This document shows, piece after piece, positions 5,289 to 46,799 of a stretch of DNA of 64,000 bases. Under the pieces are notes generated by a model, which was not told the DNA's origin, did no database searches, and saw nothing but the letters and a program-made list of their open reading frames with translations. The stretch comes from Oscillospiraceae bacterium (GTDB lineage: Bacteria; Bacillota; Clostridia; Oscillospirales; Ruminococcaceae). The stretch's first letter is position 1; every line of letters begins with the position of its first letter. The position numbers and the translations under genes were made by a program. Location: contig JAFUOD010000018.1 in NCBI GenBank assembly GCA_017472735.1, positions 1-64,000 on the forward strand, in the 5' to 3' direction.

Positions 5289-5462
5289 ATGACAAAGATG
5301 GGTAGACCGAAGGTCGATAAACCGATTGACCATGTTGTAACAGTCAAGTTTAGAGAAGAGGAATACCAAGCTTTGTTGGAATATGCACAGTCTCGCAACT
5401 TATCCATATCGCATATATTACGACTGGGTGTTGAGATGCAAATCAAAAATAACCAGAAGTAG
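5289..5462 (+). CDS. Ribbon-helix-helix (Arc/CopG-type) regulator
   Basis: A 57-residue protein starting at ATG 5289 after GAGGAGG. The core is a beta-strand followed by two helices: DHVVTVKFREEEYQALLEYA then NLSISHILRLGVEM. This is the RHH layout, with alternating basic residues in the strand that read DNA bases. It sits just downstream of a promoter whose spacer is a perfect palindrome (5236-5256) and just upstream of the integrase, so it probably represses its own and integrase transcription. Confidence 0.75.
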   Translation: MTKMGRPKVDKPIDHVVTVKFREEEYQALLEYAQSRNLSISHILRLGVEMQIKNNQK

Positions 5463-31997: not shown

Positions 31998-32026
31998 TTG
32001 ACAAAACTGTTAAAGTATGATAGAAT
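31998..32026 (+). promoter_or_regulatory. Promoter of the Leu T-box operon
   Basis: TTGACA at 31998-32003 and TAGAAT at 32021-32026 with a 17-base spacer. Confidence 0.85.
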
Positions 32027-32029
32027 CCA

Positions 32030-32314
32030 TATCAAACGCTGTGAAGATAATCAGCTTTTAATGAATCTTTAAAGAGAGCTGTCGTTAAGGTGAAAGACAG
32101 TAAGAGGGTTAAAGGCTTACTCCTATCCGAGCGGAGACCGTGAAAAGTTATTTAAGTAGTGGTCTACGGAATAAGCACCGTTATTTGGCTGAGGGTTTGT
32201 CTGAACCCATGAGAGGTCGATTTAATTCGGCAATACGGGTGGTACCGTGGTTAATTAATTATTAATCATCCCGCAGCAAGCTAAGAGATTTTTCTTGGCA
32301 GGCTGCTTTTTTAA
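32030..32314 (+). ncRNA. T-box leader, specifier read as CTC (Leu)
   Basis: A stem I with AGAGAGCTG at the distal part, the antiterminator motif GGGTGGTACCGTGG at 32237-32250, and a terminator (GCAGC-GCTAAGA/TCTTGGC-GCTGC then TTTTTT) at 32273-32314. The specifier is read as CTC at 32120-32122, five bases before CGAGC, by aligning with the two other T-boxes in this locus. Uncharged tRNA-Leu would then switch on the LeuA-like, synthetase and amidohydrolase genes. The specifier is less certain than the T-box itself. Confidence 0.85.
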
Positions 32315-32357
32315 TTTCAGACAAAAATTCTTATTTTATAAAGGATGGTCAAGCAAT

Positions 32358-33737
32358 ATGAAAAACATCACAGTTTCAGACATTACATTGAAATCTTTAA
32401 GCGCTCAGTCTCTTACCTTCAGAGAGAAAGCTGCAATTGCCAAGTCGCTTGACAGCTTGGGCGTTGACGTTATTGAGCTTCCCATGCCGGGCAGTGCCAA
32501 GGAAGAAGCAGTTGTTGATTCTACCATTGCGGCAAGCGTAACAAATGCTTGCGTTGCAATTCCCGTCGGCATGAGCGAGGAGACCTTGGAAACTGCATGG
32601 AGCTGCGTTAAAAACGCGGTATCGCCCTGCTTGCAGATCGAAATTCCCACCTCTACCGTGGGCATGGAATACATCTGGCACATGAAAGCGCCCAAAATGC
32701 TTTCTGCCGCTGAAAAGATGATTAAGCTTGCAAAAGAAAAATGCGAATGTGTTGAGCTTGTTGCGCTTGATGCTACCCGTGCCGAGCGTGACTTCTTGGT
32801 CGCTCTTTGCAAAATGGCTGCCGAGAACAGCGTATGCGCTGTTACTCTTTGCGATGATGCAGGTATTTTCTTGCCCGAGGATTTTGCAAAGATGGTTGCA
32901 GAAATTAAGGCACAGTGCGATGTTAAAATCTGCGTTATGCCCTCGGACGATATAGGAATGGCTTGTGCTTGCGCTGTTGCCGCTGTTAATGCAGGCGCCG
33001 ACGGTGTTAAGACCGCTGTAACGGGCTCGAGGCTTGCAGTTGATAGTTTTGCACAGATAGTTAAAATAAAGGGCGACGAGCTTGGCGTGTCGGTATCGGT
33101 TGACCTTACAAGATGCAACTTTGAAGCGAAAAACCTTAAAAACGTTTTTGAAACCGCAAAGACCGAAACCGCAAATGCCGAGATATTAAATGTTAATGAG
33201 GTTACGCTGACCGCAAACAGCACCTACCCCGAGGTTTGCGAAGCTATCAGCGCTTTGGGTTATGACCTTTCGGATGAGGACAAGGGCAGAGTTTATGAAG
33301 ATTTCCAGCGTCTTGCCCGCAAGAAAAAAGAGATAAGCACCAAGGAATTTGAGGCTGTTATTGCAACAAGCGCAATGCAGGCCCCCTCGACCTACCACGT
33401 TGAGAGCTATGTTGCAAACTGCGGCAACATTATTTCGGCAATGTCAAACATCACCCTTGTTAAAGACGGTGAAAAGCTTATGGGCGTTGCAACGGGTGAC
33501 GGACCTATTGATGCTTCGTTTAAGGCTATTGAACAGATCATAGGCCACCATTACGAGCTTGACGACTTTAAGATCACAGCGGTTACTCAGGGTAAAGAAG
33601 CTGTGGGCGAGGCTATTGTTAAGCTTCGTGCAAACGGCAAGCTTTATTCGGGCACAGGTATTTCTACCGACATTATCGGCGCTTCGATAAGAGCCTATGT
33701 AAACGCTCTTAACAAAATTGTTTATGCCGAAAACTAA
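32358..33737 (+). CDS. 2-Isopropylmalate-synthase-like protein, probably catalytically inactive
   Basis: A 459-residue protein with the LeuA layout: TIM barrel (1-270), linker, C-terminal LeuA dimer/regulatory domain (about 345-455: AMQAPSTYHVESYVANCGN, GDGPIDASFKAIEQIIG). The catalytic motifs are gone. D-T-T-L-R-D-G-E-Q has become SDITLKSLSAQS, the metal-binding H-C-H-N-D region reads CVMPSDDIG, and the G-E-R-x-G-N loop reads VTGSRLAVDS. The barrel frame (GVDVIELPMPGS, ALDATRAERDFL) is kept. It may act as a leucine sensor or scaffold rather than an enzyme. ATG 32358 lies after the T-box terminator; the frame is open upstream through it. Confidence 0.75.
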   Translation: MKNITVSDITLKSLSAQSLTFREKAAIAKSLDSLGVDVIELPMPGSAKEEAVVDSTIAASVTNACVAIPVGMSEETLETAWSCVKNAVSPCLQIEIPTSTVGMEYIWHMKAPKMLSAAEKMIKLAKEKCECVELVALDATRAERDFLVALCKMAAENSVCAVTLCDDAGIFLPEDFAKMVAEIKAQCDVKICVMPSDDIGMACACAVAAVNAGADGVKTAVTGSRLAVDSFAQIVKIKGDELGVSVSVDLTRCNFEAKNLKNVFETAKTETANAEILNVNEVTLTANSTYPEVCEAISALGYDLSDEDKGRVYEDFQRLARKKKEISTKEFEAVIATSAMQAPSTYHVESYVANCGNIISAMSNITLVKDGEKLMGVATGDGPIDASFKAIEQIIGHHYELDDFKITAVTQGKEAVGEAIVKLRANGKLYSGTGISTDIIGASIRAYVNALNKIVYAEN

Positions 33738-33755
33738 CATTTTAAGGTGATTATT

Positions 33756-36215
33756 ATGAAACTTTCATTTTCAACAGCCAATGTTAAAACCGCCTCGTTT
33801 TTAGAGCTGTGCGATACAGCAATGGGCTATGGCTTTAACGCAATCGAGCTTTATGATTTAGATACTGCCAAAAGCTCTCACAAAGACGGACTTTTCTCGG
33901 CTCTTTCAAGGGCAGATGCCAAGCGCAAGCTTATAAACCGCCATATCGAGGTCTCGGCGCTTACTTACCCTGTTGACCTTGCCTCGGGAAAAGCCGACCC
34001 CACAGAGCTTTGCGAATATGTAAACGCTGCCGCCGATGCAGGAATTAAAAATGTTATTGTTTTTGCGTCTGTTAAAGTTAGCAGCGAGGTTTTAAAGGAT
34101 TATTTAATGCCTGCCGTTAAGCTTGCCGAAAAGGAAGGCGTAAGAGTTTTGATGGATTCGGTAGGAGACTATGCCGATACGGTTAAGCTTGTTAAGGTGT
34201 TCCGCAAGTTTGCGTCCCCTGCAATGGGCGCCTGCTGGAATGTAAGAGAGACTTACTTTAAGGCTAAGGAATCTGCCGAGGATACAATTACAAACCTTGG
34301 CGCATATATCGGTTATGTTCGCTTGGGCGATGTTAAAGACGGCAAAGATGTTCTTATCGGCGAGGGAGAGCTGCCTGTTTCGGAGGTTTTGGACGCTTTG
34401 CGTTCGCTCAACTTCGACGGTGCGTGCGAATGTGCATGGAACGACGAGATCATCGACCCCGACATAGTCCTCACCCACTTTGCAAGCTTTATTGAAAGAA
34501 AAACAAGCGAGAGCAAGCCCAAAGCAGCACTTCATTATAACCGTTCTCACACCGGCACCTTCCCATGGAAGAAGTATGAGCTTTTGGACAAGACCTTCTC
34601 TCAGGTTTTAGATGTTGTTGCCGACACCTACCCCGACCAGTACGCTTTTAAATACACCACTTTAGACTATACAAGAACATATTCCGAGTTCAGACGTGAC
34701 GTTGACCGTGTTGCCGCCGCCCTCATTTCTTTGGGCGTAGAACCCGGCCATCACGTATCCATCTGGGCAACAAACATTCCTCAGTGGTTTTTGACCTTCT
34801 GGGCGGCAACAAAAATCGGTGCTGTTTTGGTAACCGTTAACACCGCTTATAAGATCCACGAGGCTGAATACCTCTTCCGCCAGTCGGATACCCACACCTT
34901 AGTAATGATAGACTCGTGCAAGGATTCAAACTATAAAGAGATCATGGAGGAGCTTTGCCCCGAGCTTAAAAACACAAAGCCGGGCGACCCGCTTTACTCC
35001 AAGGCTTTGCCGTTCTTAAGAAATGTTATTACCGTTGGCTTTGAGATGGAAGGCGCATTGACTTGGGAAAAGATGCTTGAGCGTGCAGATATGGTACCGC
35101 TTGAGGAAGTAAGACGCCGTGCGGCTGCCGTTAAGCCCGACGACGTTGCAAACATGCAGTATACCTCGGGCACAACAGGCTTCCCCAAGGGCGTAATGCT
35201 CACACACTCGAACATTTTAAATAACGGCAAGACTATAGGCGACAGAATGGACCTTTCGACTGCCGACAGAATGATGATCCAGGTGCCAATGTTCCACTGC
35301 TTCGGCATGGTACTCTCGATGACCTCGATGATGACACACGGCGGAACACTTTGCCCCATGCCTTACTTCTCGCCAAAGTCGTCGCTTGCCTGCGTTAACG
35401 ACGAGCACATAACCTGCTTTAACGGCGTTCCCACCATGTTTATTGCAATGTTTGGTCACGAGGACTTTGCAAAGACCGACTTCTCTTACATGAGAACAGG
35501 CATCATGGCAGGCGCTAACTGCCCGGCAGACCTGATGAGACGTGCTGCAGACGAAATGAATATGCGCGAGATAATCTCGGTTTACGGACAGACTGAAGCT
35601 TCGCCCGGATGCACGATGGGCGAGGTCAACGAAGATCTTTGGCACAGAGTTGAAACTGTTGGCTCTGCTTTCCCCGGCGTTGAGTGCAAGATAATCGACC
35701 CGGAAACAGGTGCAGAATTGCCCGACGGCGAAAACGGCGAATTTGTTGCCCGCGGCTTTAACATCATGAAAGGCTATTACAAAATGCCCAGAGCAACAGC
35801 TCAGGCTATTGATAAAGACGGCTGGCTTCATTCAGGCGATATTTGCTGCCGCACGCCCGACGGTTATTTTAAGGTTACCGGCAGACTTAAGGATATGATC
35901 ATTCGCGGCGGCGAAAACCTCTACCCCAGAGAGATAGAAGAATTTTACCTCACTCACCCCAAGGTCGAGGATGTTCAGGTAGTCGGCGTGCCCGACAAGC
36001 GCTACGGCGAAGAAGCCTGCGCGTGGATAATTCTTAAGGACGGCGAGGAAGCCACAATTGAAGACATGGTTGAATACGGCAACGCAAACATGGCTCGTCA
36101 CAAGGTGCCCAGATACTTTATCTTCACAAAGACCTTCCCCATGAATGCCGCAGGCAAGATTTTAAAATATAAAATGCGTGAGGATTCGGTAACCGTTTTA
36201 GGTATTGAAAAATAA
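33756..36215 (+). CDS. Fusion of a sugar-isomerase-like TIM barrel and an AMP-forming acyl-CoA synthetase
   Basis: An 819-residue fusion. Residues 1-250 resemble the xylose isomerase-like TIM barrel (AP endonuclease family 2 fold: MKLSFSTANVKTASFLELCD, YGFNAIELYDL, GYVRLGDVKDGKDVLIGEGE). Residues about 265-815 are an acyl-CoA synthetase: MQYTSGTTGFPKGVMLTH (ATP loop), YGQTEASPGCTMGEV, GWLHSGDICC, GRLKDMIIRGGENLYPREIE, and the catalytic Lys in MNAAGKILKYKM. In a Leu T-box operon, isovalerate is the natural substrate to propose. The role of the barrel is unknown. RBS AAGGTG; 18 bases after the LeuA-like stop. Confidence 0.85.
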   Translation: MKLSFSTANVKTASFLELCDTAMGYGFNAIELYDLDTAKSSHKDGLFSALSRADAKRKLINRHIEVSALTYPVDLASGKADPTELCEYVNAAADAGIKNVIVFASVKVSSEVLKDYLMPAVKLAEKEGVRVLMDSVGDYADTVKLVKVFRKFASPAMGACWNVRETYFKAKESAEDTITNLGAYIGYVRLGDVKDGKDVLIGEGELPVSEVLDALRSLNFDGACECAWNDEIIDPDIVLTHFASFIERKTSESKPKAALHYNRSHTGTFPWKKYELLDKTFSQVLDVVADTYPDQYAFKYTTLDYTRTYSEFRRDVDRVAAALISLGVEPGHHVSIWATNIPQWFLTFWAATKIGAVLVTVNTAYKIHEAEYLFRQSDTHTLVMIDSCKDSNYKEIMEELCPELKNTKPGDPLYSKALPFLRNVITVGFEMEGALTWEKMLERADMVPLEEVRRRAAAVKPDDVANMQYTSGTTGFPKGVMLTHSNILNNGKTIGDRMDLSTADRMMIQVPMFHCFGMVLSMTSMMTHGGTLCPMPYFSPKSSLACVNDEHITCFNGVPTMFIAMFGHEDFAKTDFSYMRTGIMAGANCPADLMRRAADEMNMREIISVYGQTEASPGCTMGEVNEDLWHRVETVGSAFPGVECKIIDPETGAELPDGENGEFVARGFNIMKGYYKMPRATAQAIDKDGWLHSGDICCRTPDGYFKVTGRLKDMIIRGGENLYPREIEEFYLTHPKVEDVQVVGVPDKRYGEEACAWIILKDGEEATIEDMVEYGNANMARHKVPRYFIFTKTFPMNAAGKILKYKMREDSVTVLGIEK

Positions 36216-36230
36216 TAAGGAATGATAAAA

Positions 36231-37052
36231 ATGCAGCATATAATCGATTGTCACTGTCATGTTTACCCCGATAAGATAGCCGAAAAAGCGGCAGAAGCTA
36301 CGGGTAAGTTTTACAGCTTGCCAATGGAATATAACGGTACGATCGGAACTGTTTTTGAAGAGGCTAAAAAGTCGGGCGTTTCGCACTGCGTAATATTCTC
36401 AGTGGCAACAAAGCCCTCGCAGGTGCGCTCGATAAACGAATTTATTGCGGCAACTGTTGCAAAAAGCCCTGAGTTTTTCACAGGTCTGGGTGCGCTTCAC
36501 CCCGACAGCGAGGATATAGAGGGCGACATTGAGCATTTAATGTCGCTTGGCTTAAAGGGCGGAAAGCTTCACCCCGATATTCAGGCGTTTGAGATAGATA
36601 ACGAGAAAAGCATGAAAATATGCTCGATCTGCGAGGAAAAAGGCTTGCCTGTTTTGTTCCACACAGGCGACCGCAGATATGACTATTCTAACCCTAACCG
36701 CTTAAAGCCCGTTTTGCAGGCTCATCCGAATTTAACGGTTATTGCCGCACATTTGGGCGGCTGGTCTGTTTGGGAGGATGCTGTTAAGGAACTTGCTCAC
36801 TTTAAAAACCTTTATGTCGATTGTTCGTCAAGCTTGGCGTTTATGCCTCTTGAAAGAATTACCGAGATAATAAAAACCTTCGGCGCCGAAAAGGTGCTCT
36901 TTGGCACGGATTATCCTATGTGGAATATATCCGATGAGCTTGACAGATTCTCTCGCCTTGGTCTGAGCGACGAGGAAAGAGAGCTTATATTGTGCAAAAA
37001 TGCACAAAAGCTATTTGGTATAAAGCTTAATTGTGTCGAAAATAACGGTTGA
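36231..37052 (+). CDS. Amidohydrolase 2 family protein
   Basis: A 273-residue metal-dependent hydrolase of the PF04909 type. HIIDCHCHVYPDK carries the HxH metal motif, GGKLHPDIQAF and PVLFHTGDRR add ligands, IAAHLGGWSVWEDA and FGTDYPMWN the last His and Asp. Relatives hydrolyse or decarboxylate small cyclic or aromatic acids. It is the last gene of the Leu T-box unit, 15 bases after the synthetase; its substrate is unknown. Confidence 0.8.
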   Translation: MQHIIDCHCHVYPDKIAEKAAEATGKFYSLPMEYNGTIGTVFEEAKKSGVSHCVIFSVATKPSQVRSINEFIAATVAKSPEFFTGLGALHPDSEDIEGDIEHLMSLGLKGGKLHPDIQAFEIDNEKSMKICSICEEKGLPVLFHTGDRRYDYSNPNRLKPVLQAHPNLTVIAAHLGGWSVWEDAVKELAHFKNLYVDCSSSLAFMPLERITEIIKTFGAEKVLFGTDYPMWNISDELDRFSRLGLSDEERELILCKNAQKLFGIKLNCVENNG

Positions 37053-37078
37053 CAAACGGCTGTTTAATTTGATATTAT
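37049..37078 (+). promoter_or_regulatory. Promoter of the Ile T-box gene
   Basis: TTGACA at 37049-37054 with TATTAT at 37073-37078 (18-base spacer); it overlaps the end of the amidohydrolase gene. Confidence 0.65.
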
Positions 37079-37097
37079 AATAGCAATATATCACATT

Positions 37098-37375
37098 AAA
37101 GTATAAAAGCTGTGACGAAGACGGAACTGTCGCACAAATATTTCTCAGCGAGTCGGGTTTGGTGCAAGCCGACAGATATTTGACACTTCCCATCACTTCC
37201 GAGCTGAAGATCCGAACAATGCGTTGTGTAGGGTTTTTCGTGACTGCTGCGTTAATGCATACGGCTTGTTTGAGCCTGAGCGGCGTGAGTGTTATTCACG
37301 CAATTTGAGTGGTACCGCGGGTATGATTTTATCAGCTCGTCTCAAGAGAATTGAGGCGAGCTGTTTTATTTTTAT
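37098..37375 (+). ncRNA. T-box leader, specifier read as ATC (Ile)
   Basis: Stem I has GTGACGAAGA at its base and GTCGGGTTTGGTGCAAGCCG at its tip. The specifier ATC is read at 37192-37194, followed by ACTTC then CGAGC. GAGTGGTACCGCGG is at 37307-37320 and the terminator CAGCTCG-CTCAA/TTGAG-CGAGCTG with TTTTATTTTT at 37333-37373. The purine after the specifier is present (A). The leader is nearly the same as the next T-box (39722) outside the specifier arm. Confidence 0.92.
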
Positions 37376-37398
37376 CTTCACGAAAGGAGAAACGCAAA

Positions 37399-39672
37399 AT
37401 GACAACCAACAACCAAACTTCTTATCAGCTTATGGAGATCGCTTCGCGAATTAAGGAAATGCGTGAGATCATGGGCTGGACTGCCTTGGAAATGGCACAG
37501 AAGACCGAGGTTAGCGAAGAGGCTTATGTAACTTATGAAAATGCGGGTGCAGACCTGCCGTTTAGCTTTATTCACAAATGTGCGCTTGCTTTCGGCATCG
37601 ACTTAACCGACCTTTTGGAGGGTAATAATCAGGCAAGGCTTTCTACATATACAGTAACCCGCAAGGGCAAGGGACAGAAGACCGCCAAGGAGGAAGGCAT
37701 TGATATTGCCAATCTTGCTCCTAAATTCCGTGATAAGATCGCCGAGCCTTATTGGGTCAAATATGAATATTCGGCGCAGCAGCAAACCCAGCCCATTCAG
37801 CTTGACACTCACTCGGGTCAGGAGTTCGACCTTATCATCAGCGGCAGCTTAAAGGTTCAGGTTGGCAACCACATTGAGGTCTTGCACGAGGGCGACTCGA
37901 TCTATTACAACTCGTCTGTTCCTCACGGCATGATAGCTGTAGATGGCGCTGACTGTGTGTTTGTGGCAGTTGTTTTGCCCGGCGAGGACACCAAGGAAGA
38001 AACCGTTCGTTCGAGCGTTGTTAAGGCTGGCAGCTCGGAAAAGCTTATTGCCGAGAAGTTTGTTAAAACCGTCGAGGATGAAAACCATTGCTTAAAGAGC
38101 ATTGAATTTAAAAACACCGACACATTTAACTTCGGCTTTGATATTGTTGATGAGATCGCAAACAAATATCCCGATAAGCTTGCAATGATCCACATTGATA
38201 AGAATCACTTTGAAAGACGTTTTACCTTTAAGGATATGAAGCGCGCATCAAATCAGACAGCAAACTATTTAAAATCCCTTGGCATTAAGCGCGGAGACAA
38301 GGTAATGCTTGTTTTAAAGAGACATTATCAGTTCTGGTTTGCAATGGTTGCACTTCACAAGCTCGGCGCTGTTGCAATTCCTGCAACCAACCAGCTTAAA
38401 GAACACGATTTTGAATACAGATATGAAGCAGCAGGCGTTAACGCAATCATCTGCACCGCCGACGGCGATGTTGCGGATATTGCCGCAAGAGCAGCTGAGA
38501 ATTACGGTCAGCCTATTACAAAGATAATGGTTGGCGGTGCAAGAGGGGATTGGCACGACTTCGATGCTGAATATAACCTCTTTACAGGTAAGTTCGACAG
38601 ACCCGAGGATTGCTCGGCGGGATATGAGACTGCGCTTATGTTCTTTACCTCGGGCACAACAGGCAACCCCAAAATGGCAGCACACGCACACACTTATGCT
38701 TTGGGTCACTTTGTTACCGCAAAGTATTGGCACTGCTGTGAGCGTGAGGGCTTGCACCTTACCATCTCCGACACCGGCTGGGGCAAATCTCTTTGGGGCA
38801 AGCTTTACGGCCAGTGGCTCTGCGAGGGTGCAGTGTTCGTTTACGACTTCGACAGATTCGATGCAAGCGACATTTTGCCAATGTTCGCAAAATACCGCAT
38901 CACCACCTTCTGCGCTCCTCCCACAATGCTCAGAATGATGATCAAGGAAGACCTTTCAAGGTATGACCTTTCATCTATTCACCACATGACAACAGCAGGC
39001 GAAGCGCTTAACCCCGAAGTTTTCAGACAGTTTGAGGCGGCAACAGGCCTTCAGATAATGGAGGGCTTCGGTCAGACCGAAACCACCCTTGCCATTGCCA
39101 ACCTTTGGGGTGACGTTCCCAAGCTTGGCTCGATGGGCAAGGCTAACCCTCAGTTCGATGTTGACATTGTTGACCCCGACGGCAACAGCCTGCCAAACGG
39201 CGAAGTTGGCGAGATCGTTATTCACACCGACAAGACTGTGCCCTGCGGATTGTTTAAAGAATACTACAGAGATCACGAAAAGACCTCGGACGCTTGGCAC
39301 GACGGACTTTACCACACCGGCGACACCGCTTGGCGCGATGAAGACGGCTACTTCTGGTATGTATCCCGTATCGACGATGTTATCAAGTCCTCGGGCTACC
39401 GCATTGGCCCCTTCGAGATCGAATCGGTTATTATGGAATTGCCTTATGTTCTCGAGTGCGGCGTAAGTGCTGCCCCCGATGAGGTAAGAGGTCAGGTAGT
39501 TAAGGCAAGCATTGTTTTAACCAAGGGCACTCAGCCTTCTGACGAACTTAAGAAAGAGATCCAGCAGTATGTAAAGGATCACACCGCACCTTATAAATAT
39601 CCCAGAATCGTCGTGTTTAAAGATGAATTGCCTAAGACCATCAGCGGAAAAATTCAGAGAAACAAGCTTTAA
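37399..39672 (+). CDS. XRE-cupin-acyl-CoA synthetase fusion (proposed 2-methylbutyrate ligase)
   Basis: A 757-residue three-part protein. Residues about 10-75 are an XRE helix-turn-helix (RIKEMREIMGWTALEMAQKT, then SEEAYVTYENAG); about 115-200 a cupin (DTHSGQEFDLIISGSLKVQV, EGDSIYYNSSVPHGMIAV); about 240-755 an AMP-forming synthetase with MFFTSGTTGNPKMAAHAH, EGFGQTETTLAIANL, GLYHTGDTAWRDEDG, IDDVIKSSGYRIGPFEIE and the catalytic Lys in ISGKIQRNKL. The start at 37399 follows AAAGGAG after the T-box terminator. An Ile T-box makes 2-methylbutyrate the likely acid; substrate is inference. The regulator half may sense the substrate or amino acid. Confidence 0.88.
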   Translation: MTTNNQTSYQLMEIASRIKEMREIMGWTALEMAQKTEVSEEAYVTYENAGADLPFSFIHKCALAFGIDLTDLLEGNNQARLSTYTVTRKGKGQKTAKEEGIDIANLAPKFRDKIAEPYWVKYEYSAQQQTQPIQLDTHSGQEFDLIISGSLKVQVGNHIEVLHEGDSIYYNSSVPHGMIAVDGADCVFVAVVLPGEDTKEETVRSSVVKAGSSEKLIAEKFVKTVEDENHCLKSIEFKNTDTFNFGFDIVDEIANKYPDKLAMIHIDKNHFERRFTFKDMKRASNQTANYLKSLGIKRGDKVMLVLKRHYQFWFAMVALHKLGAVAIPATNQLKEHDFEYRYEAAGVNAIICTADGDVADIAARAAENYGQPITKIMVGGARGDWHDFDAEYNLFTGKFDRPEDCSAGYETALMFFTSGTTGNPKMAAHAHTYALGHFVTAKYWHCCEREGLHLTISDTGWGKSLWGKLYGQWLCEGAVFVYDFDRFDASDILPMFAKYRITTFCAPPTMLRMMIKEDLSRYDLSSIHHMTTAGEALNPEVFRQFEAATGLQIMEGFGQTETTLAIANLWGDVPKLGSMGKANPQFDVDIVDPDGNSLPNGEVGEIVIHTDKTVPCGLFKEYYRDHEKTSDAWHDGLYHTGDTAWRDEDGYFWYVSRIDDVIKSSGYRIGPFEIESVIMELPYVLECGVSAAPDEVRGQVVKASIVLTKGTQPSDELKKEIQQYVKDHTAPYKYPRIVVFKDELPKTISGKIQRNKL

Positions 39673-39688
39673 AAAATTGGTTTTGGTG

Positions 39689-39717
39689 TTGACAATTATA
39701 TAGGGACGTGGTATAAT
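39689..39717 (+). promoter_or_regulatory. Promoter of the Val T-box operon
   Basis: TTGACA at 39689-39694 and TATAAT at 39712-39717 with a 17-base spacer. Confidence 0.9.
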
Positions 39718-39721
39718 ACTA

Positions 39722-40018
39722 CAGTAAAGTGAAAAAGTGTTGACGAAGAAGGGTAGCTTCTTTTCCGGTTAAGAGAAACGGCGTTTGGTGCGAGCCGCCA
39801 TCGGGGAATTGTTACTTGTAGCTTCCGAGCTGAGAGGAAGAAAGGTGTTTAACAAATACCGAGTAGACCCTTTCCGTGATTGCTGCGTTAATGCATACGG
39901 CTTGTATGAGCCTGAGGGGCGTGATTCACGCAATTTGAGTGGTACCGCGGGATATAATTTGTAATTATACTCGTCTCAAAGAAGAAATATCTTTGGGACG
40001 GGTTTTTGTTTCTTTTTA
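39722..40018 (+). ncRNA. T-box leader, specifier read as GTA (Val)
   Basis: The specifier GTA is read at 39818-39820, followed by GCTTC then CGAGC at the same spacing as in the Ile T-box. GAGTGGTACCGCGG is at 39937-39950, and the terminator CTCGTCTCAAAGA/TCTTTGGGACGGG with TTTTTGTTTC at 39970-40017. It controls the second synthetase and, by read-through, the oxidoreductase genes; whether read-through reaches ilvE is unclear because of the hairpin at 45651. Confidence 0.92.
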
Positions 40019-40054
40019 AACTTCGCCCAAGGGTACAAAGAAAGGAAGAAAAGA

Positions 40055-42343
40055 GTGCAAAACACCGGAATTGAACTGAAGATTCTTGAAATGGCGGCAA
40101 GAATAAGAGACCTTCGAGAGATCGTTGGGCTTACCACCGCCGAAATGGCGCTTAAAACGGGCGTATCCGAAGATGAATATATCGCCTGCGAAAACGGCAA
40201 ACGCGACCTTAACTTTGCATTTTTATACAGATGTGCGCTTGCTTTGGGCGTTGACGTAACCGATATTATTGAGGGTGCTTCGCCCCGACTTGCAGGCTAT
40301 ACCGTAACCCGAAAGGGCGACGGACAAAGAATTGAGCAGGCACACGGCATGGTTTATTATAACCTCGCCTCTGCTTTTAAAAACAGGATCGCTGAGCCTT
40401 TGCTGGTCGTTTCGGCTTACAGCGATGAGGCGCAGAACGCCGATATTGAGCTTACCACCCACGAGGGTCAGGAATGTGACATTATTGTAAGCGGTGCGTT
40501 AAAAATTCAGATAGGCGACCACGTTGAAATTCTTAAAGAGGGCGACTCGATCTATTACGACTCTGATACCCCTCACGGAATGATTGCCGTTGGCGGAACT
40601 GACTGTGTGTTCTATGCCATTGTTTTAAATCCTGCAGGTGAATCTATTGAAAAGATCACTCACGGCGGTGTCCGCGAGTTTACAGCACGTCCTTTAAAGA
40701 CTCCCGAAAGAAAGTGGATCTATGAGGACTATATTGAAACAAAAGAAGATAAGAACGGAGTACTGGAAAAGATCTCGTTTAAAAACGAGCAAGGCTTCAA
40801 CTTCGCCTTTGACCTTATTGACAGAATGGGCCGTGAACAGCCCGATAAGCTTGCACTTTTACATATTGATAAAAACCACGTTGAAAGACGCTTTACCTTT
40901 GCCGACATTAAGCGTGCTTCGAGCCAGACGGCTAACTATTTAAAATCCCTTGGAATTAAAAGAGGGGATAAGGTGCTTTTAATTTTAAAGAGGCACTATC
41001 AGTTCTGGCTTGTAATGATAGCTTTGCACAAGCTTGGCGCAGTTGCAATTCCCGCAACAAACCAGCTTAAAGAACATGATATATCGTACCGAATTAACAA
41101 AGCAGGCGTTAAAATGGTTATCTGCACTGCCGATGACGGCGTTGCCGAGCAGGTTGACATAGCCTCGAAGGAAACACCCACGTTAGAGACAAAGCTTATT
41201 GTTAACGGTCAGCGTGACGGCTGGAGAAGCTTCGATGAGGAATATCCTCTTTACACAGGCAAGTTTGACAGACCCGATGATTGCCCCTGCGGCGACGAGC
41301 CGATGCTTATGTATTTCACCTCGGGCACAACGGGCAACCCCAAAATTGCAACCCACAACTTTATGTATCCTTTGGGCCATTTTGTTACCGCTAAGTATTG
41401 GCACTGCGTTAACCCCAACGGCTTGCACTTAACCGTTTCCGATTCGGGCTGGGCAAAATGTGCATGGGGCAAGCTTTACGGTCAGTGGCTTTGCGAGGCT
41501 CCCTTGTTTGTTTACGACTTCGACAGATTTGATGCCGAGGATATTTTGCCGATGTTCGCAAAATATCAGATAACCACCTTCTGCGCTCCTCCCACGATTT
41601 TAAGAATGCTTGCAAAGCAGGATATTTCAAAGTATGATTTATCCTCTATTGAACACATGACAACAGCAGGCGAAGCGCTTAACCCCGAAGTTTTCAGACA
41701 GTTTGAAAAAACCACAGGTCTTCAGATAATGGAAGGCTTCGGTCAGACCGAGACCACCGTTGCACTTGCAAACCTTGCAGGCATGAAAGCTAAGCTTGGT
41801 TCGATGGGTAAGCCTGTTGCGCTTTATGATATCGACCTTGTTGACGCTGACGGCAAACGGGTTGACGATGGTGAGGTCGGCGAAATCGTTATTCACGTTG
41901 AAAACGGTTCGCCCTGCGGCTTGTTCCGAGGATATTACCGTGACGAAGAAAAGACCAAGGAAGTATTCCGCGACGGACTTTACCACACAGGCGATACTGC
42001 ATGGCGCGACGAGGACGGCTACTATTGGTATGTCGGCCGAGTTGACGACGTTATCAAGTCCTCGGGATATCGAATCGGTCCCTTCGAGATTGAAAACGTT
42101 ATCATGGAACTTCCATATGTTTTGGAATGCGGTGTTAGTGCCGCACCCGACGAGGTAAGAGGTCAGGTAGTTAAGGCAAGCATAGTTTTAACAAAGGGCA
42201 CCGAGCCTACCGACGAACTTAAGAAAGAAATTCAGCAATATGTTAAATCGCGTACCGCACCTTATAAATACCCCAGAATTGTTGTATTTAAAGACGAGTT
42301 GCCCAAAACGACCAGCGGTAAGATTCAGAGAAATAAATTATGA
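40055..42343 (+). CDS. XRE-cupin-acyl-CoA synthetase fusion (proposed isobutyrate ligase)
   Basis: A 762-residue paralogue of the 37399 protein with the same order: helix-turn-helix (RIRDLREIVGLTTAEMALKT), cupin (LTTHEGQECDIIVSGALKIQ, EGDSIYYDSDTPHGMIAV) and synthetase (MYFTSGTTGNPKIATHNF, EGFGQTETTVALANL, VDDVIKSSGYRIGPFEIE, TSGKIQRNKL). The two are alike along their whole length, so the gene and its T-box were duplicated together. GTG start at 40055 after AAAGGA. A Val T-box and the following 2-oxoacid oxidoreductase suggest isobutyrate as substrate. Confidence 0.88.
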   Translation: MQNTGIELKILEMAARIRDLREIVGLTTAEMALKTGVSEDEYIACENGKRDLNFAFLYRCALALGVDVTDIIEGASPRLAGYTVTRKGDGQRIEQAHGMVYYNLASAFKNRIAEPLLVVSAYSDEAQNADIELTTHEGQECDIIVSGALKIQIGDHVEILKEGDSIYYDSDTPHGMIAVGGTDCVFYAIVLNPAGESIEKITHGGVREFTARPLKTPERKWIYEDYIETKEDKNGVLEKISFKNEQGFNFAFDLIDRMGREQPDKLALLHIDKNHVERRFTFADIKRASSQTANYLKSLGIKRGDKVLLILKRHYQFWLVMIALHKLGAVAIPATNQLKEHDISYRINKAGVKMVICTADDGVAEQVDIASKETPTLETKLIVNGQRDGWRSFDEEYPLYTGKFDRPDDCPCGDEPMLMYFTSGTTGNPKIATHNFMYPLGHFVTAKYWHCVNPNGLHLTVSDSGWAKCAWGKLYGQWLCEAPLFVYDFDRFDAEDILPMFAKYQITTFCAPPTILRMLAKQDISKYDLSSIEHMTTAGEALNPEVFRQFEKTTGLQIMEGFGQTETTVALANLAGMKAKLGSMGKPVALYDIDLVDADGKRVDDGEVGEIVIHVENGSPCGLFRGYYRDEEKTKEVFRDGLYHTGDTAWRDEDGYYWYVGRVDDVIKSSGYRIGPFEIENVIMELPYVLECGVSAAPDEVRGQVVKASIVLTKGTEPTDELKKEIQQYVKSRTAPYKYPRIVVFKDELPKTTSGKIQRNKL

Positions 42344-43014
42344 TTAGCTTAAACCCAAAAAGAGTTACGCTTTTTGCAGGACATTACGGCAGCGGCAAAA
42401 CGAACATTGCTGTTAATTATGCGCTTGCTCTTAAGGATTTGGGAAAGAATGTTGTGGTTGCCGACCTTGACATTGTTAACCCTTACTTTAGAACAAAAGA
42501 CAGTGCAAAAGAGCTAAACGAAAAAGGCATTGAGATTATAAGTCCCGAATTTGCAAACACAAATGTCGATTTGCCGGCACTGCCTGCGTCGGTTTACGGC
42601 GTGGTGCAAAACCGTTTAAGGCACGCTGTGCTTGATATCGGAGGCGACGACCGAGGCGCTTACGCCTTGGGAAGATATGCGCCTTATATTATGGAAGAAA
42701 ATGATTTTGAAATGATATTTGTCGCAAATTTCTTAAGACCTCTTACAAGAACCCCCGAAGAAGCCTTTGAGGTTATGAAAGAGATCGAACAGGCAGGGCA
42801 TATTCCGTTTACTGCAATTGTGAACAATTCAAACCTTGGCAAAGATACCGAGCCCGAAGATGTCGAAAAAACCGACATTTTGGCAAAACGCTTAAGCGAA
42901 TTAAGCGGACTGCCGCTTTTGTTTACAAGCGCCGAGGAAAATGTTGCAAAACAGCTTACACTTAACAATGTTTTACCAATGAAGCTTCAAAAGAAGTATT
43001 TTGATATTATTTGA
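42340..43014 (+). CDS. P-loop ATPase of the oxidoreductase operon
   Basis: A 224-residue MinD/ParA-like or SIMIBI-class ATPase. The Walker A region is FAGHYGSGKTNIAVNYAL, followed by VVVADLDIVNPYFRTKD (Walker A'/switch-like Asp) and AVLDIGGDDRGAYALGRY. It has no membrane-targeting or DNA-binding part. Its start overlaps the preceding stop (ATGA). Similar ATPases are found next to 2-oxoacid:ferredoxin oxidoreductases in Clostridia; a role in cofactor insertion or activation is possible but unproven. Confidence 0.75.
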   Translation: MISLNPKRVTLFAGHYGSGKTNIAVNYALALKDLGKNVVVADLDIVNPYFRTKDSAKELNEKGIEIISPEFANTNVDLPALPASVYGVVQNRLRHAVLDIGGDDRGAYALGRYAPYIMEENDFEMIFVANFLRPLTRTPEEAFEVMKEIEQAGHIPFTAIVNNSNLGKDTEPEDVEKTDILAKRLSELSGLPLLFTSAEENVAKQLTLNNVLPMKLQKKYFDII

Positions 43015-43032
43015 CGAAAAGGAGAGATTTTT

Positions 43033-43239
43033 ATGGCAAAAGTAACATTTGCTACCGACGTTTGCAAGGGCTGTGGGCTTTGTGTTGACGCTTGTCCTAA
43101 GCAGCTTATTGTTCTTAGCAATGATAAAATCAACAAAAAAGGTCATTCCCCCGCAGAAATTACCGACCAGTCAAAGTGCATAGGCTGTGCTTTTTGTGCA
43201 ACCATGTGCCCCGACTGCGTTATTAAGGTCGAGAGATGA
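43033..43239 (+). CDS. vorD/korD: 2-Oxoacid:ferredoxin oxidoreductase, ferredoxin (delta) subunit
   Basis: A 68-residue protein with two 4Fe-4S motifs, CKGCGLCVDACPKQL and CIGCAFCATMCPDCV. It carries electrons between ferredoxin and the thiamine site of the complex encoded next to it. RBS AAAGGAG. Confidence 0.92.
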   Translation: MAKVTFATDVCKGCGLCVDACPKQLIVLSNDKINKKGHSPAEITDQSKCIGCAFCATMCPDCVIKVER

Positions 43240-43261
43240 TTGGAAAGGACGGACTTGAATT

Positions 43262-44323
43262 ATGGCAGAAAAAGTTTTAATGAAAGGTAACGAAGCTATT
43301 GCCGAGGCCGCTATTCGTGCAGGCTGCCGCCACTACTTCGGTTACCCCATTACCCCTCAGACAGAGCTTGCAGCTTACATGGCAAAAAGAATGCCCAAAA
43401 TAGGCGGCGTTTTCCTTCAAGCCGAAAGTGAAGTCAGCGCAATCAACATGGTTTACGGTGTTGCAGGCACGGGCTTGCGTGTTATGACCTCGTCCTCCAG
43501 CCCCGGTGTATCTTTGAAGCAGGAGGGTATCTCTTACATCGCAGGTGCAGACTTGCCCGCACTTATTGTTAACGTACAGCGCGGCGGCCCCGGCCTCGGC
43601 GGTATTCAGCCCTCGCAGTCCGATTACTTCCAGGCAACAAAGGGCGGAGGTCACGGCGACTATCACCTTATTGTTTTGGCTCCTGCTTCCGTTCAGGAGA
43701 TGGCAGACCTCACAGCAACCGCATTTGACCTTGCTGACAAATACAGAATGCCTACCATGATTTTAGCTGACGGCACAATGGGACAGATGATGGAGCCTGT
43801 TGTTTTGCCCGAGCCTTATGAAGCAAAGAGCGAAAAGCCATGGGCTGTAACCGGCACAAAGTGCGAGCGTGAGCATAACATCATCAACTCGCTTTACTTA
43901 GTGCCCGAGGAGCTTGAAAAGGTTAACTTTGCAAGATTTGAAAAATACAAGACTATTGAAGAAAACGAGGTCATGTATGAAGAATATATGATGGACGACG
44001 CTGAATACTGCATCGTTGCATTCGGCATTGCGGCACGTGTTTCCAAAAACGCAATTAACGCCGCACGCGCAAAGGGCATCAAGGTCGGACTTATCCGCCC
44101 CATCACCCTTTGGCCCTTCCCCAAGGATGTTATTAACAAGGCCGCTGATAAGGTTAAGGCATTTATCAGCGTTGAGCTTTCGATGGGTCAGATGATCGAA
44201 GACGTTAAGCTTGCCCAAGAATGTAAAAAGCCTGTATATCTTTGCAACCGTGCAGGCGGCATGATCCCCGAGCCCGAGGAGATCATTGCAAAGCTTGAAG
44301 AACTTGAAGGAGGTAACGACTGA
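43262..44323 (+). CDS. vorB/korA: 2-Oxoacid:ferredoxin oxidoreductase, alpha subunit
   Basis: A 353-residue subunit with the pyrimidine-binding transketolase fold (FGYPITPQTELAAYMAKR, LQAESEVSAINMVYG, TSSSSPGVSLKQEGISY, VQRGGPGLGGIQPSQSDY) and a C-terminal domain II. In the reductive direction the complex joins acyl-CoA and CO2 to form a 2-oxoacid using reduced ferredoxin; in reverse it oxidises 2-oxoacids. The four-gene delta-alpha-beta-gamma order is that of 2-oxoisovalerate (VOR) or 2-oxoglutarate (KOR) enzymes. The BCAA context favours VOR. Confidence 0.9.
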   Translation: MAEKVLMKGNEAIAEAAIRAGCRHYFGYPITPQTELAAYMAKRMPKIGGVFLQAESEVSAINMVYGVAGTGLRVMTSSSSPGVSLKQEGISYIAGADLPALIVNVQRGGPGLGGIQPSQSDYFQATKGGGHGDYHLIVLAPASVQEMADLTATAFDLADKYRMPTMILADGTMGQMMEPVVLPEPYEAKSEKPWAVTGTKCEREHNIINSLYLVPEELEKVNFARFEKYKTIEENEVMYEEYMMDDAEYCIVAFGIAARVSKNAINAARAKGIKVGLIRPITLWPFPKDVINKAADKVKAFISVELSMGQMIEDVKLAQECKKPVYLCNRAGGMIPEPEEIIAKLEELEGGND

Positions 44324-45078
44324 TGGCAGTTGTATTTGAAAAAACCAAGGCACTTACCGATGCACCCTTGCACTATTGTCCCGGCTGCACTCACGGTATC
44401 ATTCATCGCCTTGTTGCCGAAGCTATTGACGAGCTTGGCGTTTTGGGCAAAACCATTGGTGTTGCACCTGTTGGATGCTCGGTAATGGCATATAACTACT
44501 TCGCCTGTGACATGGTTGAGGCGGCACACGGCCGTGCACCCGCTGTTGCTACCGGATTAAAAAGAGCATTGCCCGAAAACGTTATCTTTACATATCAGGG
44601 CGACGGTGACCTTGCTTCTATCGGTATGGCTGAAACAGTTCACGCCGCTACAAGAAACGAAAACATCACTGTAATTTTTGTTAACAATGCAATTTACGGC
44701 ATGACCGGCGGCCAGATGGCTCCTACCTCTTTGCCCGGTCAAGTTACTCAAACCTCGCCTTACGGCAGAGATGTTAAGACCGTTGGCTTCCCTATCAGAG
44801 TCAGCGAGATGCTCTCGGCTTTGGACGGCCCCGAATATATTGAAAGAGTTGCAGTTAACAACGTTAAAAATGTTAAGGCAGCTAAAAAGGCTATTAAAAA
44901 GGCTTTTGAAAACCAGATCAACGGCAAGGGCTTCTCTCTTATTGAGGTTGTGTCCTCTTGCCCGACAAACTGGGGCATGACACCTAAAAAGGCTTTGGAA
45001 TGGATAGATACCAACATGATTCCTTATTATCCTTTGGGTGTTTATAAGGACAGAAGCGCTGTAAAGGAGGAAAAGTAA
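44323..45078 (+). CDS. vorA/korB: 2-Oxoacid:ferredoxin oxidoreductase, beta (thiamine) subunit
   Basis: A 251-residue subunit with the thiamine diphosphate motif GDGDLASIG and VNNAIYGMTGGQMAPTSL, and an N-terminal HYCPGCTHGIIHRLV. Its ATG overlaps the alpha stop by one base (TGATG). It supplies the catalytic cofactor of the complex. Confidence 0.92.
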   Translation: MAVVFEKTKALTDAPLHYCPGCTHGIIHRLVAEAIDELGVLGKTIGVAPVGCSVMAYNYFACDMVEAAHGRAPAVATGLKRALPENVIFTYQGDGDLASIGMAETVHAATRNENITVIFVNNAIYGMTGGQMAPTSLPGQVTQTSPYGRDVKTVGFPIRVSEMLSALDGPEYIERVAVNNVKNVKAAKKAIKKAFENQINGKGFSLIEVVSSCPTNWGMTPKKALEWIDTNMIPYYPLGVYKDRSAVKEEK

Positions 45079-45080
45079 TT

Positions 45081-45620
45081 ATGGCAACTAACAACATCCT
45101 CATTGCAGGTTTTGGCGGACAGGGCGTTTTGTTTGCAGGCAAGTTTTTGGCATATAAAGGTTTGCTTGAAGAAAAGGAAATCTCGTGGCTTCCTTCTTAC
45201 GGCCCCGAAATGCGCGGCGGTACGGCTAACTGCTCGGTAATCATCAGTGACACTCCTGTTGGTTCGCCCATTGTTTCCACCCCCGACGTTTTGATGGTTA
45301 TGAATCTCCCCTCGCTTGATAAATACGAGGCAGCCGCAGCTAAGGGCGCAAAGGTGTTCGTCGATTCGACCCTTATTACCCGCAAGCTTGTGCGCGACGA
45401 CGTTGACGCTTATTACATTCCCGCTACTCAAATGGCTAAGGATTTGGGAATCCCCACCCTTGCAAACATGATTATGGTTGGCAAGGTTATTAAAGAGGCA
45501 GGCGTTGTTTCGTTTGACAACATGGTTGACTCGCTCAAAAAGGTAGTTTCGGCAAAGCGTGCCGAGCTTTTGGAGCTTAACCTTAAGGCTATCGAAGCAG
45601 GATATAATTATATCGGCTAA
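45081..45620 (+). CDS. vorC/korC: 2-Oxoacid:ferredoxin oxidoreductase, gamma subunit
   Basis: A 179-residue subunit with GFGGQGVLFAGKFLA at the N-terminus and SYGPEMRGGTANCSVIIS, both typical of the gamma domain that binds CoA. It starts two bases after the beta stop and completes the complex. Confidence 0.92.
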   Translation: MATNNILIAGFGGQGVLFAGKFLAYKGLLEEKEISWLPSYGPEMRGGTANCSVIISDTPVGSPIVSTPDVLMVMNLPSLDKYEAAAAKGAKVFVDSTLITRKLVRDDVDAYYIPATQMAKDLGIPTLANMIMVGKVIKEAGVVSFDNMVDSLKKVVSAKRAELLELNLKAIEAGYNYIG

Positions 45621-45650
45621 AGCACTTGATAAAATTTTAAAAATGTGATA

Positions 45651-45690
45651 GTGTGAAATAAGCCGGCGATTTATCCCGCTTATTTCACAC
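45651..45690. repeat. 13-bp perfect inverted repeat between korC and ilvE
   Basis: GTGTGAAATAAGC (45651-45663) and GCTTATTTCACAC (45678-45690) with a 14-base loop. There is no T-tract, so it may be an RNA processing or stabilising hairpin, a weak terminator or an operator for ilvE. Confidence 0.55.
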
Positions 45691-45731
45691 TTGGCATTTA
45701 ACAAGTAATTCTCTTTTGGAGGTTGAATATT

Positions 45732-46799
45732 ATGCTTAACATTAGAATTGAAAAAACACAAAACCCCAAAGCAAAGCCCGAAAAAGGTGCACCTTTAGGA
45801 TTCGGTCACATTTTTACCGACCATATGTTTGTAATGAACTATGAAGAGGGCAAGGGCTGGTTCGATCCAAGAGTCGTACCCTTTGAGAATATCTCTTTGT
45901 CTCCTGCTTCAATGGTGTTCCACTACGGTCAGGAAATGTTTGAGGGCTTAAAGGCTTATAAGGGCGAGGATGGTCAGATTTACCTCTTTAGACCCGAAAT
46001 GAACGCTAAGCGTGCAAACGCTTCTAATGAGCGTCTTTGCATTCCTGAAATTCCCGAGGAAGATTTTGTTCAGGCTGTTAAGGCGGTTGTTGACGTTGAC
46101 AGAGATTGGGTACCCGAAGAAGCTGGCACCAGCCTTTATATCCGTCCATTTGTTATCGCAACCGATAACTTCTTGGGCGTTGCGCCCTCTAAAACCTATT
46201 TGTTTATGGTGATCCTTTCTCCTTCGGGAGCTTATTACGCAAGCGGTTTGGCACCTGTTGGTATCTGGATCGAGGATGAATATGTAAGAGCAGTAAAGGG
46301 CGGTATTGGCTATGCTAAGACCGGCGGCAACTACGCAGCATCCTTGGCAGCACAGGTTAAGGCTCATGACGGCGGTTACAGCCAGGTTTTGTGGCTTGAC
46401 GGTGTTGAGAGAAAGTATATTGAAGAAGTAGGCGCAATGAACATTGTGTTCAAAATTTCGGGCAAGATCGTTACACCTGCGCTTAACGGTTCCATTCTTC
46501 CCGGCATTACCCGAAACTCGGTGCTTAAGCTTTGCCGTGACTGGGGCTATGAAGTTGAGGAGAGAAAGATATCGGTTGACGAGCTTGTTGAAGCCGCACA
46601 CAACGGCACTCTTGAAGAAGTTTTCGGAACGGGTACCGCTGCTGTTGTTTCGCCCGTTGGCAAGTTAAGATATAAAGACGATGTATTCGCTATCGGCGAT
46701 GGCGGCATTGGCGAGCTTACACAAAAGCTTTATGATGAGATAACCGGCATTCAGTGGGGCAAGAAGGCTGACCCCTATGGCTGGAGACAGACGGTTTAA
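45732..46799 (+). CDS. ilvE: Branched-chain amino acid aminotransferase
   Basis: A 355-residue fold-type IV PLP enzyme. MVFHYGQEMFEGLKAYK, LYIRPFVIATDNFLGVAPSK, and ERKYIEEVGAMNIVFK are its hallmarks; the PLP lysine lies in AVKGGIGYAKTGGNYAASL. It transfers the amino group between glutamate and the 2-oxoacids of Leu, Ile and Val, the last step of the proposed pathway. ATG 45732 follows GGAGG; the inverted repeat at 45651 lies before it. Confidence 0.93.
   Translation: MLNIRIEKTQNPKAKPEKGAPLGFGHIFTDHMFVMNYEEGKGWFDPRVVPFENISLSPASMVFHYGQEMFEGLKAYKGEDGQIYLFRPEMNAKRANASNERLCIPEIPEEDFVQAVKAVVDVDRDWVPEEAGTSLYIRPFVIATDNFLGVAPSKTYLFMVILSPSGAYYASGLAPVGIWIEDEYVRAVKGGIGYAKTGGNYAASLAAQVKAHDGGYSQVLWLDGVERKYIEEVGAMNIVFKISGKIVTPALNGSILPGITRNSVLKLCRDWGYEVEERKISVDELVEAAHNGTLEEVFGTGTAAVVSPVGKLRYKDDVFAIGDGGIGELTQKLYDEITGIQWGKKADPYGWRQTV

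Follow-up and report, generated by a model that had tools for sequence, protein, structure and literature searches.

The conversion of isovalerate to leucine, of isobutyrate to valine and of 2-methylbutyrate to isoleucine was described by Allison and others, as cited in PMC7356843 for rumen anaerobes, the works cited there including Robinson and Allison (1969) and Allison and Peel (1971). In Methanobrevibacter ruminantium the isoleucine branch was deduced from the absence of the usual route (PMC2812497), branched acids are described as growth factors of methanogens (PMC10658910), and branched volatile acids have been tested as feed additives (PMC12272956). At the enzyme level, MacsMa is described as preferring 2-methylbutyrate (PMC10455477), and MbcS as using 2-methylbutyrate and isobutyrate, and isovalerate poorly (PMC10026030). 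The physiology has been known for about sixty years; the new part is a candidate gene set and its T-box code, found in the window, i.e. the whole analysed stretch of 64,000 nucleotides from Oscillospiraceae bacterium (GCA_017472735.1, contig JAFUOD010000018.1, positions 1 to 64,000). The module, at 31998-46799 on the forward strand, holds three T-box leaders, acyl-coenzyme A (CoA) synthetases, a 2-oxoacid:ferredoxin oxidoreductase (Vor) and IlvE. It is real, recurrent and amino-acid-coded, and it probably serves the starvation-induced synthesis of branched-chain amino acids, with 2-methylbutyrate and isobutyrate, and with less certainty isovalerate, as the acids that undergo reductive carboxylation. 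What computation shows are the T-boxes with their specifiers, the gene families and their synteny, the conservation, the match of residue to specifier and the co-occurrence in genomes. The initial annotation had regarded such a gene set with matched T-boxes as not described, in agreement with the open-access literature: among the matches listed (title and start of abstract) none joins T-boxes with acyl-CoA synthetases or with this route, subscription papers and preprints lying outside the search.

T-box leaders and gene order of the module

The leaders and genes of the module are as follows (HTH, helix-turn-helix; AMP, adenosine monophosphate):
32032..32276, + strand: Leu T-box leader, specifier CUC (RF00230, 111.0 bits)
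32358..33737, + strand: leuAx, LeuA homologue with a degenerate catalytic barrel and a LeuA_dimer domain (Pfam HMGL-like and LeuA_dimer)
33756..36215, + strand: timACS, fusion of a xylose-isomerase-like TIM barrel and an AMP-forming acyl-CoA synthetase (PRK12583-like, below cut-off)
36231..37052, + strand: amidohydrolase (Amidohydro_2)
37103..37347, + strand: Ile T-box leader, specifier AUC (RF00230, 91.9 bits)
37399..39672, + strand: ACS_I, HTH-cupin-AMP-forming acyl-CoA synthetase fusion, Gly at the pocket position
39731..39981, + strand: Val T-box leader, specifier GUA (RF00230, 73.6 bits)
40055..42343, + strand: ACS_V, HTH-cupin-AMP-forming acyl-CoA synthetase fusion, Ala at position 467
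42340..43014, + strand: P-loop nucleotide-binding protein (weak CbiA/ParA matches, under cut-offs)
43033..43239, + strand: ferredoxin subunit with two 4Fe-4S motifs
43262..44323, + strand: Vor alpha subunit, VorB (NF005507, 567.9 bits, cut-off 399)
44323..45078, + strand: Vor beta subunit, thiamine diphosphate (TPP_enzyme_C; PorB_KorB-type below cut-off)
45081..45620, + strand: Vor gamma subunit (POR domain)
45732..46799, + strand: IlvE, branched-chain aminotransferase type II (TIGR01123, 413.6 bits, cut-off 250)

The specifiers CTC (32120-32122), ATC (37192-37194) and GTA (39818-39820) stand at an equal offset, as the initial annotation had proposed; none of them resolves to an amino acid other than Leu, Ile and Val. 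All three leaders match the RF00230 covariance model of Rfam with genome-wide E-values of 7.8e-26 (Leu), 6.6e-21 (Ile) and 3.5e-16 (Val), values at which a match by chance is very improbable; the Leu leader alone passes the gathering score of 93, and those of Ile and Val fall below it.

The genome holds 13 RF00230 matches, the three of the window and ten others, eight of which were used to calibrate the specifier rule; the remaining two, L012 ahead of a thrS-like gene and L013 at the end of a contig, were left out. The rule, which places the codon one base ahead of the last four-base stem and GAG motif, gave Tyr, Asp, Ala, Phe, Trp, Trp, Cys and, in a tandem leader, Leu then Ile, ahead of tyrS, hisS-aspS, alaS, pheST, a trp operon, a trpB-like gene, cysE-like and cysS genes, and an ilv/leu operon, respectively. 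Specifier and downstream gene, the latter recognised from translations without a family search, agree in 8/8 control leaders, and all three window leaders carry a specifier at this fixed offset that matches the regulated pathway. The two Trp T-boxes lie on different contigs (L006 on C22, before the trp operon; L007 on C8, before the trpB-like gene). Genes for tRNA-Leu(GAG) and tRNA-Val(UAC) are present in the assembly.

The expectation of an AMP-forming synthetase behind each leader held for Ile and Val; directly behind the Leu leader lies leuAx, with timACS second. The ferredoxin, alpha, beta and gamma genes do follow the Val synthetase and lead on to ilvE, with the P-loop gene between the synthetase and the ferredoxin gene, and with about 110 bases, holding an inverted repeat, between the gamma subunit gene and ilvE. 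In most laid-out loci the P-loop gene stands directly before the ferredoxin gene; in L122 it lies some 4 kb away.

Each leader has a strong promoter-like site ahead of it and a terminator hairpin at its end, so the module probably comprises three transcription units. These sites, with the inverted repeat, are:
31998..32026, + strand: Leu-unit promoter-like site TTGACA-17-TAGAAT (11/12 positions; consensus match only)
32273..32306, + strand: Leu terminator hairpin, followed by a T run (-19.6 kcal/mol, z -4.3)
37049..37078, + strand: Ile-unit promoter-like site TTGACA-18-TATTAT (11/12 positions)
37333..37363, + strand: Ile terminator hairpin (-22.2 kcal/mol, z -6.9; also in consensus scan)
39689..39717, + strand: Val-unit promoter-like site TTGACA-17-TATAAT (12/12 positions)
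39969..40003, + strand: Val terminator hairpin (-19.1 kcal/mol, z -5.2; also in consensus scan)
45650..45691, strand not given: inverted repeat with 17-nt arms, before ilvE

The consensus scan found 30 promoter-like sites in the region versus 20.4 in shuffles, and it did not pick up the Leu terminator, unlike those of Ile and Val. No inverted repeat like that at 45650-45691 was found before 48 other ilvE genes tested (1/49, the window's own). Elsewhere in the window, an HTH-XRE RNA motif (RF02923, 59.1 bits) lies at 2221-2310.

Conservation of the module and its specifiers

Relatives of the module were collected with ACS_V, which had some match in 104/119 genomes from its own family, in many cases limited to the synthetase domain; this search gave 20 regions (L055-L074), and a scan of genome contigs added the best 80 of at least 592 confirmed relatives (L075-L154). 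These 80 come nearly all from metagenome-assembled Clostridia, and the sources named are mostly ruminant gut, also horse. The module is found again in dozens of Clostridia that are uncultured and come mostly from the ruminant gut. Among the 80 named loci, counting only those with room, ACS_I lies upstream of ACS_V in 54/66; ACS_V is followed downstream by the ferredoxin gene and the three Vor genes in 41/51 and by ilvE in 35/51; and leuAx adjoins timACS in 31/31.

Specifiers were counted in the window and 100 regions, for orthologues covering >85% of the window protein and with six hand readings. Before ACS_I (n = 65) there were 59 AUC specifiers, with no T-box in 6 cases, so that Ile was read in 59/59 leaders with a T-box. 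Before ACS_V (n = 89) the count was 63 GUA, 9 GUC, 2 GUG, 5 AUC, 2 CUG, 6 without T-box and 2 with too short an upstream stretch, so that readable T-boxes gave Val in 74/81, Ile in 5 and Leu in 2. Before leuAx (n = 36, including L068, a true LeuA) we counted 21 CUC, 14 without T-box (L057 and L080 among them) and 1 too short. The Val codons drift at the third position and still encode Val, a pattern that speaks for selection acting on the specifier. A terminator hairpin with a T run lies 3' of 140/153 module leaders with the expected codon. Among the regions in which HTH-cupin and synthetase are split, or the synthetase stands alone, L069, L073 and L074 also have an AUC T-box, and no T-box was obtained for L067, L068, L070, L071 and L072.

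The hand-chosen readings concern L059, L084, L086, L098, L107 and L114, and the correction is one-sided, only unexpected readings having been inspected by eye. Uncorrected, the codon-blind scan gave 58 AUC and 1 other for ACS_I; 60 GUA, 8 GUC, 2 GUG, 1 GUU, 4 AUC, 2 CUG and 4 other for ACS_V; and 21 CUC and 2 other for leuAx. A third, cruder codon-blind rule agreed with this second scan in 56/59 ACS_I, 72/81 ACS_V and 14/23 leuAx leaders, and reproduced the hand reading in 4/6 cases (L059, L084, L086, L107). It differed or failed at seven CUC leaders of leuAx (L076, L101, L102, L114, L115, L123, L125), which had read CUC in an earlier scan too. The Leu specifier readings are the least robust of the three.

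Synthetase pockets and the Leu unit

Among solved structures, ACS_V finds its best relative in 3etc (622.4 bits, E 1.1e-185), labelled an AMP-binding protein, which we take to be MacsMa of Methanosarcina acetivorans. The acyl pocket of MacsMa presumably comprises W237, W254, K256, W259, C298 and G351, and these six residues are kept in 137/137 rows with an Ile or Val T-box, in an alignment using 153/154 rows (one row under 700 residues was left out). W259 and the Gly of the pocket are mentioned in PMC10455477. At position 467 of ACS_V, which aligns between W254 and K256 of 3etc, where 3etc has Gly, all 64/64 rows with an Ile T-box carry Gly and all 73/73 with a Val T-box carry Ala. This is the sole column within the synthetase domain that separates the two groups perfectly, the next-best columns (470 and 569) adjoin pocket motifs, and the Gly/Ala pattern holds in 61/61 loci with both copies. 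The pattern is most naturally read as a smaller pocket (Ala) that would suit the smaller acid; ACS_I is proposed to be a 2-methylbutyryl-CoA synthetase and ACS_V an isobutyryl-CoA synthetase.

In L138 the two copies (at 5461 and 9956) form a fully supported sister pair within the Val side of the tree, with Ile and Val T-boxes and pocket Gly and Ala, respectively. Their synthetase parts are 90.2% identical, versus a median of 73.4% over the 61 loci, and their N-terminal parts 57.0%, that of the Ile copy having Ile-type letters; grouping all Ile-labelled rows together was rejected only marginally (p-AU 0.047). The synthetase part has probably undergone gene conversion that spared the differences in the pocket, which hints that these are under selection. 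L138 had been considered as a second independent Ile/Val switch and was dropped, since the pattern of identities points to gene conversion.

In NCBIfam, ACS_I and ACS_V both match MbcS (NF047394) best, at 436.6 and 445.1 bits. This match lends some credit to another reading, in which the synthetases supply branched acyl-CoA primers for membrane fatty acids, like MbcS of Staphylococcus aureus, which feeds fatty-acid synthesis (PMC10026030), and the T-boxes respond to shortage of the amino acids that are the usual primer source. We consider this improbable: the Vor genes and ilvE so often follow the Val synthetase, VorB occurs in all 17 carrier genomes introduced below, and the specifiers are conserved and amino-acid-matched. 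The substrate range of MbcS and MacsMa fits two such enzymes for Ile and Val, with a different enzyme for Leu. Since MbcS acts poorly on isovalerate (PMC10026030), an enzyme of another family is to be expected there, and timACS is proposed as the isovaleryl-CoA synthetase.

Its neighbour leuAx was aligned in 43 rows with 13 LeuA proteins of relatives, the rows reducing to 39 distinct leuAx after removal of repeats (L155, L159, L161) and of the true LeuA in L068. The RDG and HxH motifs are absent from all 39 and both present only in L068; stray catalytic letters occur as Arg in 10/43 rows and as Asp in L068 and L147. The LeuA_dimer domain (PF08502) scores 107.6 bits in the window leuAx, and its conserved Gly, Asp and Lys are kept in 42-43/43 rows. 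A working isopropylmalate synthase was rejected as the role of leuAx, as its catalytic and metal motifs are gone. Judging from the retained domain, leuAx may sense leucine. We tentatively suggest, as a possibility short of an even chance, that it is a former LeuA, now a pseudo-enzyme, which kept the leucine-sensing half and exerts feedback on the isovaleryl-CoA synthetase, with the HTH-cupin parts of the Ile and Val synthetases as parallel built-in sensors or regulators. If so, leucine would act at two levels, on the RNA by way of the T-box and on the protein by way of the dead LeuA.

The Ile and Val units could also work as proposed while leuAx, timACS and the amidohydrolase do something else for leucine, e.g. 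draw on another precursor. timACS is closest to PRK12583 and not to MbcS, no role could be assigned to its TIM barrel or to the amidohydrolase, and leuAx is no working synthase. This we find unlikely, given the Leu specifier in 21/21 leuAx leaders with a T-box, the Vor-gene neighbourhood shared in many loci, and the different family expected from the MbcS substrate range. The Leu branch is graded lower than the other two; it draws its support from the Leu T-box, from synteny and from the LeuA-type domain, with isovalerate as the proposed, less certain substrate.

Pathway context and comparison with known systems

Co-occurrence was assessed in 17 carriers among the 119 genomes, chosen after the data had been seen (14 with the fused HTH-cupin-synthetase, 3 for a full-length leuAx; G077 was assigned from a shortened match). 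VorB (NF005507) exceeds its cut-off in 17/17 carriers versus 46/102 others (63/119 overall; Fisher p 7e-6), and ilvC in 6/17 carriers versus 70/119 genomes overall (Fisher p 0.06), both tests ignoring kinship; of the eleven carriers without ilvC over cut-off, four have weak matches. ilvD is over cut-off in 6/17 carriers, with matches below it in G066 and G105, and IlvE-II in 15/17. In G117 (one contig, 99% complete) an Ile-T-box synthetase (L060), VorB and IlvE-II were found, with no match to ilvC or ilvD.

As the Vor and IlvE reactions are reversible and VorB is named a dehydrogenase subunit, the genes might run towards breakdown, IlvE and Vor turning amino acids into acyl-CoAs and the synthetases handling released acids. 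We give this very little credence: T-boxes activate their genes under shortage of the amino acid, synthetases of the AMP-forming type consume ATP, and all 11 of the 17 carriers without ilvC over cut-off have VorB, 10 of the 11 with IlvE-II. Induction on amino acid starvation and biosynthesis rather than breakdown, as first annotated, are supported as an interpretation. The conserved, matched T-boxes, the MacsMa/MbcS homology, the pocket residue that tracks the specifier and VorB in the carriers make the Ile and Val branches of the predicted pathway well supported.

Several observations weigh against this biosynthetic reading or parts of it. For the synthetases, both HTH-cupin proteins miss the MbcS cut-off of 850 bits and therefore resemble MbcS without being members; four N-terminal HTH-cupin columns separate the Ile and Val types as well as column 467, so the HTH-cupin part differs between types too; and T-box label and residue each change twice on a tree of related rows, which leaves at most two changes, one of them probably gene conversion, as independent support for their match. 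Five ACS_V-type leaders read AUC (L059, L061, L062, L064, L065), all with pocket Gly and no second synthetase copy in the stretch covered, and two read CUG (L109 and L119), both with pocket Ala. In L109, leuAx and timACS lie downstream of ACS_V on the same strand. The timACS family gave no tie to isovalerate.

On the RNA side, no T-box was found at six ACS_I loci, six ACS_V loci and 14/36 leuAx. The 47 tRNA matches in the assembly include no tRNA-Ile(GAU) gene, for which missing rRNA operons may be the cause. The base 3' of the Leu specifier (32123) is C, a purine being usual at this place in T-boxes; C directly follows the specifier in 25/58 ACS_I leaders as well. The consensus-scan total of terminators (20 versus 19.1 in shuffles) is at chance level, and the antiterminator stretches alone fold no better than shuffles (z -0.6, -0.3 and -1.1). 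As for the pathway, 10/51 loci with room have no same-strand downstream Vor genes (in one of them, L138, these lie on the opposite strand), G105 and G090 gave no IlvE-II match, and the ilvC depletion is weak (p 0.06, a post-hoc set, 3/11 at 84-88% completeness). The tandem Leu-Ile T-box (contig C16 67979-68412; L011 1319-1752) lies about 21 kb after ilvE, outside the window, and ten genes follow it (L014 4458-15474): ilvA, ridA, leuA (class II), leuC, leuD, leuB, ilvB, ilvH, ilvC and ilvD, read from translations and, for ilvC and ilvD, also by TIGR families. With this complete classical operon, the module is not the only route to branched-chain amino acids in this genome.

Taken as a biosynthetic module, the genes would work as follows; the substrates, the direction of the oxidoreductase, the leucine sensing and all expression are what we infer from sequence. 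Uncharged tRNA-Leu, -Ile or -Val would build up and bind the matching T-box, stabilising the antiterminator and allowing read-through into the matching unit. The Ile unit would supply an MbcS/MacsMa-like synthetase acting on 2-methylbutyrate; the Val unit its sister for isobutyrate and the VorB-type oxidoreductase; and the Leu unit a different synthetase, probably for isovalerate, with the LeuA-derived pseudo-enzyme that possibly senses leucine. Run in reverse, the oxidoreductase would convert the acyl-CoAs, reduced ferredoxin and CO2 to 2-oxoacids, which IlvE would aminate to the branched-chain amino acids. Gut and rumen bacteria with this gene set probably turn the three branched short-chain acids into leucine, isoleucine and valine in this way. 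The T-box specifier would tell, for each synthetase, which amino acid it helps to produce, making substrates predictable from sequence; the Gly/Ala pocket residue is offered as a read-out of 2-methylbutyrate versus isobutyrate use, and genomes with the module and without ilvC and ilvD are candidate organisms dependent on cross-fed branched acids.

Among known systems, the T-box leaders of branched-chain amino acid operons described in PMC2494555 share with ours the RF00230 match, the specifier codon and the terminator; the module differs in its targets, namely acyl-CoA synthetases, one per amino acid, and a 2-oxoacid:ferredoxin oxidoreductase, and a word search of that paper gave 0 occurrences of CoA and ferredoxin. 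leuAx matches the HMGL-like and LeuA_dimer domains of the 2-isopropylmalate synthase LeuA and, unlike it, is without the RDG and HxH motifs. MacsMa and MbcS are the closest solved and the closest named relatives of ACS_I and ACS_V, with the MacsMa pocket kept; they differ from the module enzymes, which have an N-terminal HTH-cupin fusion, T-box control and separate Gly (Ile) and Ala (Val) types. Reductive carboxylation in rumen anaerobes has the same pairs of acid and amino acid and is known as physiology, to which the module adds candidate genes and their regulation.

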